Source: Hydrogenophilales bacterium
GTDB taxonomy: Bacteria; Pseudomonadota; Gammaproteobacteria; Burkholderiales; Thiobacillaceae
Direction: 5' to 3'
Assembly (NCBI GenBank): GCA_023258975.1
Contig: JAHFRD010000001.1
Span: 255,168-319,167, forward strand
Length of the DNA: 64,000 nt
Shown here: one piece after another, positions 1 to 20,572 of the stretch
How positions within the stretch are numbered: the stretch's first letter is position 1
Layout of the letters: each line of letters begins with the position of its first letter
Notes under the pieces: generated by a model
What the model was told of the DNA's origin: nothing
Seen by the model: only the letters and a program-made list of their open reading frames with translations
Databases searched by the model: none
Program-made: the position numbers and the translations under genes

Positions 1-600
1 CCGACCAGCGACGGCAGCCACACCGTGCTGGTGACCGATACCGACACCGCAGGCAACAGCAAAAACGCCTCCGTTACCTTCACCCTGGACAAGACCCTCG
101 CCCAGCCGACGGTCGCATTGAGCAACGACAGCGGCAGCAGCAACAGCGACGGCCTCACCAACGACGCCAGCCTGACCTTCAGCACGGCGGCGGCCGACGT
201 CACCCGCACCTTCACCGTGGACGGCGGCACACCGGCGGCGAGCTACACCGCCCCGACCAGCGACGGCGGCCATACCGTGCTGGTGACCGATACCGATACC
301 GCCGGCAACAGCAAGAACGCCTCGATCACCTTCACCCTGGACAAGACCCTCGCCCAACCGACGGCCGCATTGACCAGCGACAGCGGCAGCAGCGACAGCG
401 ACGGCATCACCAATGACGCCAGCCTGACCTTCAGCACGGCGGCGGCCGACGTCACCCGCACCTTCACCGTGGACGGCGGCACACCGGCGGCGAGCTACAC
501 CGCGCCAACGGCGGATGGCGGCCACACCGTGCTGGTGACCGATACCGATACCGCCGGCAACAGCAAGAACGCCTCGATCACCTTCACCCTGGACAAGACG
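1..600 (+). repeat. 252-bp tandem coding repeats in the adhesin
   Basis: The segment starting at base 1 recurs at 253 and again at 505, a period of 252 bp or 84 codons, with only scattered substitutions. The third copy diverges after about base 600. The array probably continues left of the window. Such near-identical DNA repeats normally change copy number by recombination. Confidence 0.85.
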
Positions 601-3600
601 GCTCCCGCCGCCACGGCCAGCATCACCGGCGCCGACGACAACGTGCCGGCCGATCCGGTGACCAACATCGCACAAGGCGATACCACCAACGACAACACCC
701 CGACGCTGAAAGGCACGATCACCGGCACGCTCAACGCGGGTGAAGTCGTAGCCGTCTACGATGGTGTAGCCCGCCTGGGCAACGCCACGGTCAACGGCAG
801 CGACTGGAGCTTTACCTCTCCCGGCCTGAGCAACGGCGCGCACAGCTTCACCGCCCGCGTCGAGGACGCCGCCGGCAACATGGGCACAGCCAGCGCCGCC
901 TATGCCTTCGGCATCGACGCCACCGTCCCCACCACCACGGCGACCATCACCAGCGCCATCGACGACGAGCCGTTCCACACCGGCAACGTCGCCAGTGGCA
1001 ACCTCAGCAACGACGCCATCCTGGTACTGTCCGGCGCCGTCAACGGCACGCTGGGCGACGGTGAAGTCGTGCACATCTTTGACGGCGCCTCCTTCCTCGG
1101 CATCGCCACGGTCAGCGGTAATACCTGGAGCTTCACCACCCCGGAACGGGAGGAAGGCGCGCACAGCTTCACCGCCGTGGTGGAGAACGCCGGCGGCAAT
1201 CAGGGCGCGCCCAGCGCCGCCTACACGGTGACCGTGGACACCACCGCGCCCGCCGAGCCCACCGTGACACCGGAGGACACCTCAAAAATCGCCAGTGGCG
1301 GCCATCTCTACCTCAACGATGACCAATTCAACGTCAGCGGTCTGGAAGCGGGCGCCACCTGGCAATACACCCTGAACGGCGGCACCGACTGGATAGCGGG
1401 AACCGGCGGCAGCTTTACCCTGGCGGAGGGCACCTATGGCGCTGAAGCGCAAGTGCGCCAGATTGACGCGGCCGGTAACCCTGGAACGCCGAACATCAAC
1501 GACGGCGAGCCGGTTGTGGTGGATACCCACGTCGCCGTTCCCACCCAGACCCTTGCGGTCGATACCGGCGCCAGCAACAGCGACGGCATCACCCGCAACG
1601 GCATGGTCAACGTCTCCGGCCTGGAGGCCGGCGCCGTCTGGCAGTACAGCACGAATGGCGGCAGCACCTGGATCTCTGGTACCGGCAGCAGCTTCACGCT
1701 CGGCGCCAACAGCTATGCGGCCGGCTCGGTGAGGGTGCAACAGACCGACCTGGCCGGGAACACCAGCGAACTGGGCGTCAATGCCAGCGACATCGTCGTC
1801 GACGACATGGTGCCCATCTTCGTCAGCGCCACCGTCAACGGCGCCACCCTGGCGCTGAACTACGACTCTCAGCTGGATTCAAGCAACCCACCCGTGGCGG
1901 ACGACTTCACGGTCGTTGTCAGCGGCGTGGCTCGCGGTATCGCTGCCGTCGCCGTCAGTGGCAACAGCGTCACCCTCACCCTGGCAAACCCTGTCGCCCA
2001 CGACGACACCGTTTCCATCGTCTACACCGACCCGAGCACGAACGACGACCCCGCCGCCATCCAGGACATCGCCGGCAATGACGCCGGTGGGTTGGGCAAT
2101 TTCGGCCTGGCCGGGCAAGGTGTGCAGAACAACACACCGGCCGGCCCGGACAACACCACGCCGGTACTGCAAACCGCCACGATCAACGGCGCCACCCTCA
2201 CCCTGACCTACAACGAACCCCTCGACCCGGATCATCAGCCCTCCACCAGTTATTACCAGGTCACCCTGACCGACGGCACGGGCCGTTCCGTCAACAACCT
2301 GGCGATTTCCGGCAACAGCGTGACACTCACTCTGAGCAGCCCGGTGGCGAATGGCTTGGGCGTGACCCTGAGCTACAACGACCCCAGCACAGGCGACGAC
2401 ACCTACGCCATCCAGGACCTGGCCGGCAACGACGCGGCCAGCCTGAGCAGCCATGCAGTGACCAACAACACCCCGGCCGGGGATGTGGCCGGCGCTCCCA
2501 AACTGGTGAGCGCCACCTTCACCGAGACGGCCAACGCCAGCGTAACCCTGACCTACAGCGAGGCCATGCAGGCCAGTAATCCCGGCATTGCGGCGATCTA
2601 TGTCAACGGAACCGGCAGCAACGTCCTCACCGGGGTTTCCGGCATCGTCGGCGGCGCGGTGACCTTCACCACCAACGCCACCCTTGGCGCCACCGACTAC
2701 GCGGTATTCAGCTACCACGGCGGCGACCTGCGCGACCTGGGCAACATCAACGTCGGCACGGGATCCATCGTCATCGGCGGCAGCGGCGTCAGCGACATCA
2801 ACCTCGACAATGCCGACTGGAGCAAGCTCACCACACCCATCATCATTCGCGGCAATGGTGGCGCCGACATCCTGGTGGGCACCGGCAACAACGACACCCT
2901 GATCGGCGGCGGCGGCGCCGACACCCTCAACGGTGGCTGGGGCGCGGACATCATCAACCTCAACGAAACCACCCGCGCCAGCGACACCGTGGTGGTGGGT
3001 ACCGACGGCGGCACCAGCAGCGGCAGCCAGCCCTATTTCTACGACACGGTGCATGGCTTCGACGTCTCCAACGCGGGCGGCACCAACAACGACAAGCTCG
3101 ATCTGCCTTCCAGCGCCATCGCGGGCAGCACTTCCGGCTTCGTCAACGGCGACGATACCGGCGTCATCAAGAGCCACAGCATCGGCAGCGGCGGCATCGT
3201 CACCTTCGGCGGCACGGATGCGGGCGCGCCCATCCTCATCGACGCTGGCAAACTCAACGACGCCACCGCCTATCTGGAAAAGAACTTCACCACCCCGGGC
3301 CAGGCCGTCGCGTTCAACTACGACAGCGACGGCAACGGGTACGCCGATTCCCTGTTCGTCTTCCAGGATCTGGGCGGCACGGACATTGACAACGACGTCC
3401 TGATCAAGCTCGCCGGCGTCACCGGCGTCATGCTGGGCACGACGGCGGGCCAGAACGTGGTGCAACTGGTGGACACCGCCGGGCCGGACATCAATGGCGC
3501 CAGCATCGGCACCGGCGCCAACGCCGGATTCAGCCTCACATACATCGAACCCATCCAGGTGACCGCCGACCAGGCCGCCGCCGGCTGGACCGTGCTTCAA

Positions 3601-6600
3601 AACGGGGCGGGCGCCAACGTCATCACCGGCGCGAGCGTGAGCGGCGCGAACACCCTGACTTTCCAGACCAACGCCAACCTTGCGAGCGGCGATTACCTGT
3701 ACTTCACCTACGACCCCGCCAGCGGCACCGTGCGCGATCTCACCGGCAACGCGGCGCATAGCCTCCTGCCGGGCGTGGCGTTGGGTGGCTCCGGCGATTC
3801 GATCATCGACCTGAGCAGTTTCGGCACGGCCGGCTACGGCATCTACGACCTGGGCGGCAACGACACGATCACGGGTTCCGATGGCGGTGACGACATCGGT
3901 GCAGGCGATGGAAACGACGTGATCCATGCCGGCGCGGGCAACGATTACCTCGAAGGCGGCACCGGCGCCGATACCCTGGACGGCGGCGCGGGCGCCGACG
4001 AGTTCGGCTTCACCCAGGGCGACTCCACCACCGTGGTCTACAGCAATGGCATCTACACCTTCGCCGGCAATGCCGCCGACGTCATCACCGGCGGCTTTAC
4101 GCAAGTGGCGAGCAACGGCGATTCGCAGACCGCCGACCGCATCCACCTGCGCTCCGCCATGCCCGGCAGCAGCCTGTCGCTCATGCCAAACAGCCTGGTT
4201 GTCGCCCTGTCAACCAACCCCTTTACCGACGGCCAGGCCATTGACCAAGGTTATTTCTTGACGAGAGGCGGCTACAGCGCCGGCACCTTTACGGTCGCCT
4301 CCAATGGCGCCGACACCCTGGTGGTCTACGACGGCGACAACCTCACCGGCGGCGTCAGCCAGACCGCGCTGGTGGTGCAGGGCGTGATTCCGTCACAACT
4401 CACCACGACCAATTGGGGGGACATCTATCTTTCCAGCGCCGCGCCCGCCGTCAACCACGCGCCAATCATCACCAGCAACGGCGGCGTCGACACGGCCAAT
4501 GTCAGCATTCCGGAAAACACCACGGCGGTCACCACCGTCGCCGCCAGCGACGCCGATGGCGACACGAGCGGCTACAGCATCGCCGGCGGCGCAGACGCGG
4601 CGAAATTCGGCATCAACAGCGGCACCGGCGCGCTGTATTTCCTCTCCGCCCCCGACTTCGAGAACCCCACCGACAGCGGCGCCAACAACGTCTACGACGT
4701 CATCGTCCAGGCCAGCGACGGCCACGGCGGCAGCGACACCCAGGCCATCGCGGTGACGGTGACGGATGTGGCGGAAGGCGGCGGCGCCCCCGTCGACACC
4801 ACCCCGCCGATCAACACCGGCGCCAACTTCAGTGAAAGCGCCGCCGTGGTGGGCACCTGGACACTGGGAGCCAGTTCGGACAACGCCTTCATCACCCTGG
4901 TGCTTCTCGCCGACGGCCGCTTTATGTACATGGAAGGCAGCGGTAACACGCCCAATGGCCTGGAAGCGGGCACCTACAGCTACAACGCCACTGCCGGCAC
5001 CCTCACCTTCAACGTCAGCAGCGACTTCAACGGCAACGGTGGCATCGGCCCTGGCCTGAATGGCGTGGCACTACCGGTTTCCGTGGTCAACGGTGAGCTC
5101 AGCATCACCTTTGCTCAGGGCGATGTCGGCGTATTCGACCGCCAGCCGGTGAACGCCTCGGGTATCGCGGGCACCTGGATGATGCCGGTTTCCGCAAACG
5201 AACCCTTCTCCCTGCTGGTGCTGTATGCGGATGGCCGCTTCATGTACGGCGAAGGTTCCGGCGAGGAGCCCAACGGCATGGAATCGGGCACCTACATCTA
5301 CAACCCCTCGACCGGGACACTGGGCTTCACCACGCTTTTCGACAACAACGGCGATGGCGGTATTTCCGACAACGGCACCTCCATGAGCGCCAGCGCGACG
5401 TTCCTGAACAACGGCACGGTTCAACTGGTCGGCAACAACAACGAAACCTTCAACATCACCCGCCAGTATCCGGCCACGGTCAGCGCCGTATTCAATGAAA
5501 ACGTCATGGCCAGCAACGCCAACGGCCTCAACCTCAGCCTGAACCCCTCCGATGCGAATGGCTGGCAGGGAACGGCGCTGGCCATCACCGGGGCCGCTAT
5601 CTCTGGCGCCACGGCCAATTTCTTGACTTACGGCATCCTCAATTCCACCGATGTCGTGCGCCTGCAATACAACGCCAACGCGGGCAACCTGCGCGACCTG
5701 GCCGGCAATCCGTCCCCCAGCGGCGAGGTCTGGATCGGTGGTTCCGGCAACAGCACCATCGACCTCGACTGGTACCGCCCCTGGAACGGCGGTACCGTCA
5801 TCCTGCGCGGCAATGGCGGCGCCGACCGCCTGGTGGGCACGGACGGCAACGACGTTCTGGTGGACGGCGGCGGCGCCGACAGCCTCACCGGCAGCTGGGG
5901 CGCGGACATCATCCGGTTGGTGGAGAACGGAACCAGCATCGGCTACGCCCGTGACGTGGTGAAGATTGGCGTGGGCGAGAGCCCGGCCACCGGCGCCGGC
6001 AGTGAGAACTCGGCGGGCACCGACATCGACGTCGTGCTGGGCTCCTCCACCTCGCCGGCCGGAACGGGCTTCGACATCGCTTCCGCCAACACGGCCAACC
6101 ACGACGTGCTGGGCCTGACCTCCGCCAACATCGCCGCCAATTCCGGCTTCGCGGCTGGAACGACCAACTCGGAAACCGGCGCCATCACCCAGATGAACAT
6201 CAGCGGTGGCATCGCCAGTTTCAAGAATGTGGGGGGCCAGGATGTGGCGATCGGGATGGACAACATCTACAACGCCATCCGCTACCTGATGGCCAACCTG
6301 ACTCACAATGAGACGTCGGCCTTCAAGGTGGACACGGACGGCAACGGCAGCGTCGATTCGCTGCTGGTGTTCCAGGATCACGGCCATTCCACCCTGCTGA
6401 ACATGGATCTGCCCGACACGGCGGTGGTTCTGGCCGGTCTCATCGGCATCGACAGCGCCACCCTGGGCACAACGGCTGGCGCCAACGTCGTGCAGATCCA
6501 GGACACCCAGGCGCCCAATCCGGTGGCGACCATCCTGACCAGCGACGGCTTCAGCCTCGACTTCGCCGAAAGCGTTCATGCCCCTACCGGTCTGGCGCTG

Positions 6601-7458
6601 ACCCTGCAGGTAAACGGGTCGGGCACGGTGCATACACCCGCCAGCGTCTCTGGCGATGGCACCACCAGCCTGACGGTGCATTACGCTGGCGTAACCCTGG
6701 CTGCCACCGACTGGGCGATGATGCACTACGCCGGCACGGATGCGAGCAACAGCTTCACGGATGCCGCCACCACCCCCAATGTCCTGGTCGAGGATGCCGG
6801 TGGCTTCAGCTTCGCCGAGGGCGGCAGCGGCAACAACACCATCGACCTGCACACGCTCAGCAATGGCTATGACATCAAGGGCAACGCCGGCAACGACACC
6901 CTGATCGGCTCCAGCGGCGACGACGGGATCAGGGGCGGCACCGGTGCCGACACGATGACCGGGGGCGCCGGATCGGACGACTTCAACTTCGAGCAGGGAG
7001 ATTCGCCGGTCGGGGTCGTCAATCTGAACGCGGGTGGAACCGCCGGCGTACTGGATAACGGCGATACCTTCACCTTTGCCAACGGTGTCGACCGCATCAC
7101 CGATCTTTCCAGCGCCGAGGGCATCAGCCTCGACTTCGAGCTGTCCGACCTGTTCGGCAACGCCAATGCCCCCGGCTTCATGGGCCAGTGGACCGCATTG
7201 GGTGTGGACAAGACGCCGCCCAGCAACGGCCTGGCCACCGACCAGGGCTACTTCGTGGTGCGGGGTGGCTACGCTGATGGCGGAACGACCGGCAGCAGCG
7301 GCACCTTCACCGTGGACACCACTGCGGGTGCCGACACCCTGATCGTCTGGGACGGCGACAGCAGCAACGCGGTCACCCAGACCGGCATCGTCCTCTCCGG
7401 CGTGACACCGGAGCAGCTCAACCTGTACACCGGCAGCAGTTGGATCTCGCATGTGTAA
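1..7458 (+). CDS. Giant Ig-like/RTX repeat adhesin, type I secreted (5' end outside window)
   Basis: The reading frame is open from base 1, so 2485 residues are the C-terminal part of a longer protein. In order it shows near-identical 84-residue repeats (residues 1-200), further Ig-like domains to about 600, two SwmB-like domains (about 600-830), and four calcium-binding RTX blocks with GGxGxD-type nonapeptides near residues 951-987, 1284-1337, 1936-1977 and 2290-2334. A cadherin-like domain lies at about 1484-1593, followed by two related beta repeats (about 1610-1690 and 1718-1797, each with an ADGRFMY core). The extreme C-terminus lacks charged tracts, as expected for an uncleaved type I secretion signal. 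TolC-, ABC- and HlyD-type genes follow downstream, so this is inferred to be their substrate, a LapA-like surface adhesin for biofilm attachment. The true start and any N-terminal retention module are not visible. Confidence 0.88.
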
Positions 7459-7544: not shown

Positions 7545-7619
7545 GAGCAGCTGGACCGGGACAAAAAGAGCCGTTTCCGGTGCTAGTATTCGCGCTCTTT
7601 GTGTCCCCCTGGAACTGTC

Positions 7620-7874
7620 ATGACCCATATCGTCCTGGCCGAAACCACCGCCAGCGTTTCCGAGTTGAAGAAGAATCCGATGGGTACCGTCGCGGCGGGT
7701 GAAGGGTTTCCGGTAGCCATCCTCAACCGCAACGAGCCGGCCTTCTACTGCATTCCGGCCAAGGCCTACGAGGCGTTGATGGACAAGCTGGAAGACATGG
7801 AACTCAACGCCATTGCCGAAGCCCGCCAGAAGGATGGCAAAGCGCCGGTCGAGGTGTCGCTGGATGACTTATAA
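7620..7874 (+). CDS. Antitoxin of a type II TA pair, Phd/YefM-RelB type
   Basis: The 84-residue protein has an N-terminal Phd/YefM-like segment (TASVSELKKNP, then PVAILNRNEPAFY) and an acidic C-terminal tail ending EVSLDDL. In this family the N-terminus binds DNA as a dimer and the tail wraps the toxin. The ATG at 7620 fits the family N-terminus; an in-frame upstream start at 7599 adds only unrelated residues. The gene overlaps the toxin gene by 11 bases, typical of a co-translated TA operon. Confidence 0.85.
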   Translation: MTHIVLAETTASVSELKKNPMGTVAAGEGFPVAILNRNEPAFYCIPAKAYEALMDKLEDMELNAIAEARQKDGKAPVEVSLDDL

Positions 7875-8148
7875 GCTGTTGTTCCATCCGGATGCACTGG
7901 AGGAATGGCACAAACTGGATGGCAACCTGCGCGCACAGCTCATCAAAAAACTGGCCGAGCGCCTGGAAAACCCGCGCGTGCCTTCCGCGCAACTCTCGGG
8001 AGCAAGAGATCGCTACAAGATCAAGTTGCGCGGCGTTGGCTACCGCCTGGTTTACGAAGTGCGTGACAACGAACTGGTGGTTCTGGTCATCGCCATCGGC
8101 AAACGGGAAAGAAATGCCGCTTATAAAACCGCCGCGCGGCGAGCATGA
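7864..8148 (+). CDS. RelE/ParE family toxin
   Basis: The 94-residue protein has the RelE fold pattern: YKLLFHPDALEEWHKLD, then a Leu-rich helix, then RDRYKIKLRGVGYRLVY and a final VVLVIAIGKRER strand. RelE toxins cleave mRNA on the ribosome; basic residues in the RYKIKLR and GKRER segments are the expected catalytic and RNA-binding ones. The start at 7864 overlaps the antitoxin end. It sits between an adhesin gene and its exporter genes, a common place for a stabilising insertion. Confidence 0.88.
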   Translation: MTYKLLFHPDALEEWHKLDGNLRAQLIKKLAERLENPRVPSAQLSGARDRYKIKLRGVGYRLVYEVRDNELVVLVIAIGKRERNAAYKTAARRA

Positions 8149-8305
8149 ATATCCGCATCAATTGATGCAATACCTGATTCAGAACCCTTGGTCGGAGCCC
8201 ACCATGCGCGCCACGGTCAATCTCGATGACGCCCTCGTCTCCCAGGCACAAGCGTTGAGCGGTGTGCGGGAACGTGGCGCGCTCCCGCGTGAGGCGCTCA
8301 ACGCA

Positions 8306-8504
8306 TTGATCCTATTTCCCGCAGTTGCAGGTGCCGTAGGAGCGGGCTTGCCCGCGATAGAACGCGGCCATTCGCGGGCAAGCCCGCTCCTACGAGTGAC
8401 GTTTCCACTCACCCTGCGGGTGAAGCGGACAATCACCGGTCATGCCTTTGCCCACGCAGCTTTCGAGCGTTTTGCGTATGACCAACCGCGGTTTCCAGGT
8501 TGAT
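8306..8504. mobile_element. MITE-like element, copy 1, with 5-bp target duplication
   Basis: The element spans 8311-8499 (189 bp) and is flanked by direct repeats TTGAT (8306-8310 and 8500-8504). It begins CCTATTTCCCGCAGTTG and ends with the complement of CCTGGAAACCGCGGTTG, giving an imperfect terminal inverted repeat (CCT, five mismatches, then CCGC-GTTG). It carries no transposase, so a helper in trans is needed. A REP palindrome forms its core. A second copy lies at 20308-20567. Confidence 0.8.
8336..8393. repeat. REP doublet (inverted pair) inside the MITE-like element
   Basis: GTAGGAGCGGGCTTGCCCG and its inverted copy flank a short spacer and can form a long hairpin. Near-identical units occur at 17524, 20333 and 20404-20461. 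Confidence 0.85.
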
Positions 8505-8606
8505 TCAGCGTGAAAGCGCGCGCCGACTGGCCAGCCTGGGCGGGAGCGAGCCGCAATTGGCCGAGATTCCGCGCCGCCAACCGGATCTACAGAACGGAAC
8601 CGACCA

Positions 8607-8648
8607 GTGATACTGGTGGGCCTGGCTTATCTGGCGGATCGGCATTGA
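8607..8648 (+). pseudogene. vapC toxin remnant
   Basis: A GTG at 8607 overlaps the vapB stop (GTGA arrangement) and encodes VILV, the start expected of a PIN-domain VapC (usually followed by DTS/DAS). The frame then continues GLAYLADRH and stops. Only 13 codons remain, so nearly all of the PIN domain is missing, most simply by an internal deletion that joined the first four codons to the 3' end. The identification rests on position and four residues and is therefore tentative. Confidence 0.5.
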
Positions 8649-8686: not shown

Positions 8687-9937
8687 ATGGCCTTGCCTCC
8701 ACGAATCCTGCCGAGGATCGGCGTCCTGGCGGGGTTGTGCCTGCTGGTCGCCCATCTTCACGCCGCTCCCCTCACCTTCGACCAGGCGCTCCAGGCGGCG
8801 CTGTCCACACACCCCCTGGTGCAGTCCAAGCGTTCCTCGCAAGTCGCCGCGCAAGCCGAGCGGGAGGGGGCGGAATGGCAGCGCTACCCCACGCCCAGCA
8901 TCGAGGCGAACACCCAGAGCGGGGGCCAGAACGGCGGCAAGAACGCCAGCCTGTTGCGGGTCGATCAGCCCTTGTGGACGGGCGGCCGCATCACCGCCGG
9001 CATCGAAGCCGCCGACAGCCGTTATGACGCTGCCGGCGCGGCCATCGACGAGGTGCGCCAGGAACTCGCGCTCAGGGTGATCGCGGCCAGCGGCGAGGCG
9101 GCGCGGCAGCAGGCGCGGCAGGTTTACGCGCGCGCCAGTGTGAACGAACACGAGCAATTGCTGGCAATGATCCGCCGCCGCGTGGAGCAGGAGGTCAGCC
9201 CGCTGGCGGATCAGCGTCTGGCGGAATCGCGCCTGTATTCCACTGTAAACGACTTGTCGAGCAGCACCCAGGCGCTGCAAAACGCGCTGGCGCAACTGGG
9301 GCAACTCAGCGGCCGGATGGTCACGGAAATCGACTCCTTGAGCTATGCCGAGGCGGCCAAACCCGAGGGGCTATCTGGCGATCTGTCGCGGGTGCTCGAA
9401 CGCGCCCTGGCGTATTCCCCCGCCCTGCGCCGCTTGAATTTCGAGGCCCAGGCCGCGAATGCCGACATCGACTCGAAGCGCTCCGCCTATATGCCGCAAC
9501 TGTCGCTGCGCCTGGAGAGCAGCCAGGGGAGCGTTTCCGACAACCGCGCCCTGCTGGTGCTGCTGGCGCAACCGGGCGCGGGGTTGTCGGCGAAATCAGG
9601 GGTCGATGCCGCCATCGCCCGGCGCGAAGCCACGCGCCTGGCGGCGGAGACCGCGCGACGCGACGTGCGTGAACGGGTCTCCCTGGACTGGAACGAGTGG
9701 ACGGCGGCGCGCTCGCGCATGGACAACGCGGAGCAGGCGCGATCCACCTCGGCCGAGGTTTCCGAGTCCTACGCCCGCCAATACACCGCCGGCCGCAAGA
9801 CCTGGCTGGACGTGCTCAACGCAGTGCGCGAAGCCACGCTGGCGGAACTGGCGCTGGTGGACGCGAAGAGCCAGATGCGGGCAGCGGTGCTGCGCCTGAA
9901 AGCGCAGACCGGGGCTTTGAATCTGGAAGCGAAATAG
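8687..9937 (+). CDS. TolC-family outer-membrane protein of the type I secretion system
   Basis: The 416-residue product starts with a signal peptide (MALPPRILPRIGVLAGLCLL, cleavage near HLHA-AP) and has two repeats of long amphipathic helices (LTFDQALQAALSTHPLV and the later ALAYSPALRRLNFEAQAAN) with the TAGRKTWLDVLNAVRE motif typical of TolC/LapE proteins. It forms the outer-membrane channel and periplasmic tunnel for the exporter encoded next. The ATG at 8687 is chosen because it places the signal peptide at the N-terminus; the frame extends upstream without family similarity. Confidence 0.9.
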   Translation: MALPPRILPRIGVLAGLCLLVAHLHAAPLTFDQALQAALSTHPLVQSKRSSQVAAQAEREGAEWQRYPTPSIEANTQSGGQNGGKNASLLRVDQPLWTGGRITAGIEAADSRYDAAGAAIDEVRQELALRVIAASGEAARQQARQVYARASVNEHEQLLAMIRRRVEQEVSPLADQRLAESRLYSTVNDLSSSTQALQNALAQLGQLSGRMVTEIDSLSYAEAAKPEGLSGDLSRVLERALAYSPALRRLNFEAQAANADIDSKRSAYMPQLSLRLESSQGSVSDNRALLVLLAQPGAGLSAKSGVDAAIARREATRLAAETARRDVRERVSLDWNEWTAARSRMDNAEQARSTSAEVSESYARQYTAGRKTWLDVLNAVREATLAELALVDAKSQMRAAVLRLKAQTGALNLEAK

Positions 9938-20302: not shown

Positions 20303-20572
20303 TTCAACCTATTTCCCGCAGTTGCAGGTGCCGTAGGAGCGGGCTTGCCCGCGAATATCAAGATGCTCCTGCCAAAGACAGGAACAATCACGTTGCAGGT
20401 GCCGTAGGAGCGGGCTTGCCCGCGAATGGCCGCGTTCTATCGCGGGCAAGCCCGCTCCTACGGGTGACGTTTCCACTCACCCCGCAGGTGATGCGAACAA
20501 TCACCGGTCATGCCTTGGCCCACGCAGCTTTCGAGCGTTTTGCGTATGACCAACTGCGGTTTCCAGGTTCAA
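20303..20572. mobile_element. MITE-like element, copy 2, with 5-bp target duplication
   Basis: The element spans 20308-20567 (260 bp), flanked by TTCAA at 20303-20307 and 20568-20572. Its ends and right half match copy 1 closely. It is longer by about 70 bases because the segment GTTGCAGGTGCC plus REP is repeated, separated by a unique 39-base spacer. The right terminal repeat (complement CCTGGAAACCGCAGTTG) pairs with CCTATTTCCCGCAGTTG at the left over CCT and CCGCAGTTG. Confidence 0.82.

Follow-up and report, generated by a model that had tools for sequence, protein, structure and literature searches.

The window is a stretch of 64,000 nucleotides from a Hydrogenophilales bacterium whose genome (G000) is a draft assembly of 3.63 Mb in 37 contigs. 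It includes a vapB gene divided by an insert that stands between two direct repeats of TTGAT, at 8306-8310 and 8500-8504. The enclosed element (8311-8499) has 189 bp, as the first-pass annotation had described; these amount to 63 codons at most, below the size needed for a transposase, so that the element has no room for one, also as described there. The first part of vapB (8204-8310, forward strand) includes the left TTGAT, matches PF09957 with an E-value of 3e-7, and is 64-81% identical to its homologues in six of the seven loci given. The second part (8500-8610, forward strand) follows the vapB frame to the stop codon in alignments with homologues. In intact VapB homologues, which come from the same genus as the host, the two parts map to adjacent positions (1501-1608 and 1609-1683 in L261). 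Together with the PF09957 match, this upholds the earlier proposal that taking out the insert restores VapB. In the interrupted gene, the vapB reading frame is open through the element, and a stop falls inside the right TTGAT.

Beyond vapB are a vapC remnant of 13 codons and a stop (8607-8648, forward strand), recognized from homologous loci, and a gene for a TolC-like outer membrane protein (8687-9937, forward strand). In genomes G018 and G005, a homologous vapB is unbroken; after it come a vapC frame of 123 codons and the same TolC-like gene as in the window. The TolC-like gene is the syntenic anchor of the empty site; it is 73% identical to the gene beyond vapC in G018 (L255) and 64% identical to that in G005 (L261). 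Judged by sequence and gene order, these two loci are orthologous unoccupied sites, the empty vapBC sites that the first-pass annotation had suggested looking for. Of five homologous loci that we read, four have a frame of 123-124 codons after vapB. Because vapC in the window is cut down to 13 codons, its vapBC locus is dead as a whole; from the workings of type II systems, the likely order is that the toxin was lost before the insertion or together with it. Directly upstream of the broken vapB, ORF reading finds a small gene pair (7599-8148) similar to Phd/YefM-RelE toxin-antitoxin pairs. ORF reading also finds a 2477-codon open frame with repeated blocks (25-7458), as in a large adhesin-like protein.

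The element starts with a left end of 24 nt (8311-8334, forward strand), followed by a large hairpin (8335-8394). A small second hairpin, CACCC-TGC-GGGTG, is at 8410-8422; a similar motif occurs at that place in 10 of 11 aligned elements and is absent from L075. A backbone block found by alignment with relatives (8443-8462, forward strand) starts 57 nt from the right end, which is at 8483-8499 on the reverse strand and reads CCTGGAAACCGCGGTTG from the outside in. The arms of the large hairpin (8335-8357 and 8372-8394) are 23 nt long and 100% complementary, and enclose a 14-nt loop (8358-8371) in the orientation that we name A. The arm GTAGGAGCGGGCTTGCCCGC is found 141 times in G000 with at most one mismatch, including the copies within MITEs. 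A RAYT gene is present on contig C32 of G000 (NF047646, 154.5 bits for a cut-off of 80), with matching REPs beside it and at its start. The large hairpin is a REPIN, that is, two inverted GTAG-headed REPs around a loop, with a REP that is multicopy in G000 and adjoins a RAYT.

For the 189-bp element, 26 long-match rows in G000 correspond to 25 copies, as L014 and L026 are a single copy split by a contig break. Both ends are kept in 23 copies; this set omits L014, L026 and L020, in which an end is missing, and takes the flanks of L024 from L057. What the first-pass annotation had named as evidence against itself is the same element in other flanks lacking 5-bp repeats. Instead, 19 of the 23 copies are bounded by a perfect 5-bp duplication; in three copies the repeats differ at a single base, and in L011 at three. 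All 19 perfect duplications are of the form NTNAN, which fits 23/23 left flanks and 22/23 right flanks, and which only 3.4% of the window positions take. A reading in which the 5-bp repeats are part of the element or match by chance, with no transposition, could point to the target preference, which makes some flanks alike; TTGAA appears five times. As a control, we compared the left flank of each copy with the right flanks of the other copies, and found identity in 31 of 506 pairs, a rate due to the preferred target. Relative to that cross-copy rate, the binomial tail for the perfect duplications is 6e-20, and in the window at large, two 5-mers set equally far apart coincide at 0.18% of positions. 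The exact duplications comprise twelve different 5-mers, and the orthologous vapB is unbroken in two species. The TTGAT repeats are not chance, and we regard that reading as already refuted, with next to no probability left to it. The copy number, the duplications and the IS-like ends all bear out the first-pass description of the element as a non-autonomous transposon whose cargo is a REP hairpin.

Some copies have a more complex history. The second copy in the window (20303-20572, forward strand, target-site duplication TTCAA) is 71 bp longer than the 189-bp element, and its hairpin contains filler and part of the element a second time, as though template switching had copied it. In the copy L014/L026, the contig break is inside the element, and the left end is replaced by a stretch similar to the copy's own right flank. 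The 189-bp element has no matches in the phage or plasmid collections, and Rfam gives no hits at the gathering threshold for the window and five loci.

Since G000 has a RAYT with matching REPs, it is conceivable that the RAYT moves the element through its REP hairpin, and that the outer ends are passive baggage. In favor of this, G000 has 14 further loci with the hairpin only, all of which we read, and whose loops vary. Yet at none of the 14 is there a MITE end within one mismatch of the end motif (the best, L242, has two), the unit that moves is the whole 189-bp element with 5-bp duplications at IS-like ends, and MITEs that have the same kind of ends without a REP show the same duplications. 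We consider movement by the RAYT very improbable. Four of the hairpin-only loci (L232, L235, L239 and L241) have flanks that look similar by eye, with TTCATGGCT or GATGA on one side and a CACGTCA-like sequence on the other; perhaps they represent another REPIN-carrying element. A second Y1 transposase gene in G000 (L037, C14:51298-51534) lies amid TAGCGCCGGC/GCCGGCGCTA repeats, and is perhaps part of a second RAYT-REP pair.

The 14-nt loop is found in both orientations. Counting L014/L026 as one copy and L024, by eye, as B, there are 12 copies in orientation A and 13 in the inverted orientation B, scattered on a tree built from the remainder of the element, with L020 and L026 dropped. This tree has 7 label changes (6-8 under bootstrap), close to the number for scattered labels: shuffled labels average 8.1-8.2 changes, and 141-145 of 500 shuffles are as low. 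A tree with a single clade (one origin) is rejected with p 0.018, for a label that was picked post hoc and a tree in which only one of 21 inner branches is starred. We also tried the loop orientation as a marker of two subfamilies, and dropped it given the seven changes and the p of 0.018 for one clade; the data are weak. Such flips would result if templates switch, or recombination takes place, at a perfect inverted repeat, and gene conversion between copies would look alike.

The two ends of the element, CCTATTTCCCGCAGTTG on the left and CCTGGAAACCGCGGTTG on the right in reverse complement, are alike at 11 of 17 positions; the right-end consensus in G000 is CCTGGAAACCGCAGTTG. G000 has ten more two-ended elements with CCTRGAAACNGCAGTTGA-type ends, of 134, 233-234, 306 and 586 bp plus one of 54 bp. 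The duplications are perfect in 9/9 of the larger ones, and the 54-bp element has a mismatch. Unpaired single ends of the MITE type are present in G000 as well, some of them near contig edges. A scan of named genomes for the CCTRGAAACNGCAGTTGA-type end finds at least 119 stretches, and the 80 titles listed for them are mostly from Beta- and Gammaproteobacteria. Among the 119 stretches listed, 50 include a total of 51 elements in which both ends are present and the flanking 5 bp are duplicated. The duplication is of the form NTNAN in 51/51; 32 of the 51 measure 228-240 bp, and in 18 of those 32 the best hairpin goes from position 19-24 to position 131-139. The orientation is uncertain for elements with five or more backbone mismatches, so we searched for the REP head on both strands; GTAGGAGC is found in none of the 51 on either strand. 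These elements outline an approximately 234-bp MITE family (L098-L216) with CCTRGAAACNGCAGTTGA-type ends and 5-bp NTNAN duplications in many Beta- and Gammaproteobacteria, and the two loci L044 and L154 have no match in Rfam.

The tails of the two size classes can be compared. A 234-bp element of G000 and a 189-bp element of G002 are alike at 29 of 40 tail positions, and none of 20,000 shuffles is as good. The tail of the window element is weakly similar to both, with 15/40 for the 234-bp tail (1077 of 20,000 shuffles as good) and 17/40 for the 189-bp tail of G002 (175 of 20,000). G000 joins the family by way of L061 and L075, whose last 60 bases agree with those of the window element at 42 and 46 positions, respectively. 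In L075, the left end is unrecognizable and the flanks differ at one base.

Complete insertion sequences with similar ends are found in other genomes. In G005, a decayed IS1380 transposase (L085) terminates in the MITE-like end CCTAAATCCGGCAGTTGCC. Using a piece of this transposase as a query, we find matches in 9 of 399 genomes of the order, G128 among them. G128 has a multicopy IS of 1639 bp, with left end CCTATTTCCGGCAGTTG and right end CCTAAATCCGGCAGTTA, and with identical 5-bp flanks at 9 of 13 loci, all NTNAN. For its 513-aa transposase, NF033539 (IS1380) is by far the best NCBIfam family, at 150 bits, which is below the cut-off of 180; the transposase is above the cut-off for PF13701 and PF01609. 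Plasmid CP087967.1 of Polaromonas sp. P1-6 carries a 1630-bp IS; its transposase and that of the G128 IS share 88% identity. The left and right ends of this Polaromonas IS are CCTATTTTCGGCAGTTA and CCTAGAAACGGCAGTTA, and its target-site duplication is TTAAA. At 357 bp from it there is a 234-bp element with MITE ends and an imperfect duplication (TTCAT/TTAAT). The left end of the window element agrees in its first 17 nt with the left ends of these ISs at 16 (G128) and 14 (Polaromonas) positions. Its right end agrees with that of the Polaromonas IS at 13/17 (14 for the G000 consensus), and with that of the G128 IS at only 10/17 (11 for the consensus). The two ends of the Polaromonas IS are themselves alike at 13/17. 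The first-pass annotation was correct in that the terminal inverted repeats are imperfect, with one amendment: the unequal ends of the element appear to mirror the unequal ends of its probable parent, and need not be decay. We propose that an IS1380-family IS is the likely parent of the element.

The first-pass annotation had also suggested searching for an IS with matching ends that makes 5-bp duplications. One exists in G128 and in Polaromonas, but we find no intact one in G000: in this draft assembly the search for a transposase of the lineage yields just a decayed 3' piece, which matches the G128 transposase with 39% identity across 79 aa and terminates in CCTAGAAACCGCAGTTGCC. A 134-bp MITE with target-site duplication TTGAT is inserted in this decayed 3' piece of an IS1380-lineage transposase, presumed to be of the parent type (L046, G000:C28:82900-84000). 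G000 has IS1380-like genes as well, but without MITE ends. We examined the IS1380 transposases of the host and the genus as candidate parents and dropped them, as none of the IS1380 loci of the genus has the exact end pair of the MITE; L085 has one such end, and the pair of L082 is loosely similar. Viral contigs searched with the L082 transposase give no confirmed relative, and a scan of viral contigs for the end pattern finds 7 stretches.

In this genus, the REPIN has a fixed place in the MITE. We searched 23 genomes of the genus with a gapped pattern consisting of a REP arm, 0-30 nt, and a MITE end, using the reversed pattern as a control. The pattern identifies 60 REP-to-end junctions in 9 of the 23 genomes, 21 of them in G000, and the control identifies none. 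Of the 60 gaps, 55 measure exactly 8 nt, which places the start of the REPIN 24 nt inside the MITE end; as gaps of 0-30 were allowed, the 24-nt offset is not a selection effect of BLAST. Reading the elements of other species, we find matching 5-bp target-site duplications in 11 of 23: seven of 188-189 bp, one of 246 bp, and three of 118-119 bp. For this reading we submitted 25 loci, of which L226 and L061, whose REP does not read GCTCCTAC, gave no row; L061 was measured separately by alignment. TSD-like ends with poor end motifs in L302 and L305 are left out of the count. G009 has a further 189-bp copy, with duplication TTGAA. Two of the three 118-119-bp elements, L297 (G002) and L308 (G004), agree fully in their flanks and represent a single insertion. 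The nine genomes with junctions are not all independent, because the G004 junction and one G002 junction are this same insertion.

The 188-189-bp elements of several species have different REP cores in the same place. As determined from a subset of the junctions (outside G000, 20 regions plus a few more), the slot holds type I, GTAGGAGCGGGC..., in G000, G011, G009 and G006, and in decayed form in G015; in G002, G019, G014 and G004 it holds type II, which reads GTAGGAGCGTCCGCTTGCGG or differs from that at one base. A third REP type stands in L075, one of the copies in G002. Types I and II both start with GTAGGAGCG. Counting resident REPs, copies within MITEs included, there are 141, 283, 85, 33 and 11 of type I and 9, 2, 0, 0 and 0 of type II in G000, G011, G009, G006 and G015. 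In G002, G019, G014 and G004, there are 54, 14, 10 and 3 of type II, and none of type I. The slot type is the resident REP type in 9/9 genomes with junctions. This association is not universal, as G017, with 71 and 73 REPs of types I and II and 25 MITE-type ends, has no junction.

The simplest reading of these observations would be that a REPIN replaced an older hairpin of the MITE in this genus, and has been exchanged since. More broadly, two unrelated selfish systems may be nested and exchange parts, such that the slot 24 nt inside the end of an IS1380-driven MITE is repeatedly refilled with whichever REPIN the RAYT of the host is spreading at the time; we put this forward tentatively, as an idea that falls somewhat short of an even chance. 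A serious rival, possible but likewise short of probable, is that the slot has not been refilled, and that REP type and MITE backbone co-diverged from one REPIN-bearing ancestor in the genus. The common offset of the 55 junctions is as expected from one ancestral event, the shared GTAGGAGCG start of the two REP types agrees with it, and the match between slot and resident type could stem from common descent if the MITEs seeded the free REPINs, or the reverse. Against co-descent, L075 has a third REP type despite sharing 46 of its last 60 bases with the window element, and other G002 elements have type II; also, all four genomes with type II slots have zero resident type I REPs. The species-wise REP type offers a natural test of REPIN replacement.

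We conclude that the insert is, very probably, a MITE of an IS1380-family transposon with a REPIN as passenger, whose partner IS has presumably been lost from G000 since. It has the ends, the duplications and the copy number, its orthologous site is empty in relatives, and other genomes have complete IS1380-like elements that resemble it in their ends and duplications; from these, transposition in trans and the later loss of the partner are what we infer. An IS1380-type DDE transposase acting in trans would recognize the unequal ends CCTATTTCCCGCAGTTG and CCTGGAAACCGCAGTTG and move the element, duplicating a 5-bp NTNAN target. From left to right, the element comprises an end of 24 nt, the large and then the small hairpin, a tail, and the second end. 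The large hairpin is non-REP in the widespread relative of about 234 bp, and in this genus is a REPIN of the host's resident REP type. REPINs are the mobile units of the RAYT system, so a repeat dispersed by RAYT would also spread as the passenger of a MITE moved by a DDE transposase. Less certainly, RAYT activity or recombination between hairpins might renew the REPIN in each lineage. The spread and persistence of REPINs are usually framed around RAYTs; here a REPIN occupies a fixed place in a MITE that belongs with quite another class of transposase, and the REP type varies among species of one genus. If the slot is indeed refilled, REPINs would have a second way to disperse, driven by a DDE transposase, and the MITEs would acquire a hairpin that is tolerated locally. 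A probable IS1380-like parent is also indicated for a MITE family present in many Beta- and Gammaproteobacteria records. In the titles and abstract openings of the best-matching open-licence literature, the approximately 234-bp/189-bp MITE family, its parent and the difference in REP type are undescribed.

We compare the element with known systems as they are presented in parts of the cited papers. In a study of ISEc9/ISEcp1 of the IS1380 family, the direct repeats are 4-5 bp long and the ISEcp1 end reads CCTAG from the outside in (PMC12116815). The present elements share with that family the duplications of such length, the CCT-type ends, and, in the G128 relative, a DDE transposase (PF13701, NF033539). 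They differ in that the window element has no transposase, that the G128 relative is under the NCBIfam cut-off, and that the IS ends are CCTATTT/CCTAAAT in G128 and CCTATTT/CCTAGAA in Polaromonas, compared to CCTAG in ISEcp1. Similar to REPINs and their RAYTs (PMC3116915, PMC3733652), the hairpin consists of two inverted GTAG-headed REPs with a short loop, and a RAYT adjoins the same REP; unlike in the parts of those papers considered, the REPIN here is built into another transposon, at a fixed internal position. Some REP dimers in other species are within larger palindromes, and an IS1380-type MITE is not mentioned in the portion of that source available to us (PMC3733652). TIMEs, which are derived from Tn3, are also non-autonomous and have duplications of 5-6 bp at AT-rich sites, but their ends are the 38-bp ends of the Tn3 family, of an unrelated transposase type (PMC4133298). 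A published case of a REP in a MITE is QMITE2 of Coxiella burnetii, which is 150-190 bp long, has TIRs and contains a GTAG REP; its smaller copies are REP-like (PMC5896051). Going by its description, QMITE2 resembles the window element in having a REP inside a MITE of about 190 bp; it differs in its duplications, 7-11 nt there and 5 bp here, and the available part of that paper names neither a parent IS nor a species-wise difference in REP type. The first-pass annotation had seen the element as a link between two repeat classes usually considered separately; there is indeed a REPIN inside a MITE, but given the QMITE2 precedent the link is not wholly new. The pairing of REP and MITE is not new as such; what is new is the probable parent, the fixed position, and the difference in REPIN from species to species.
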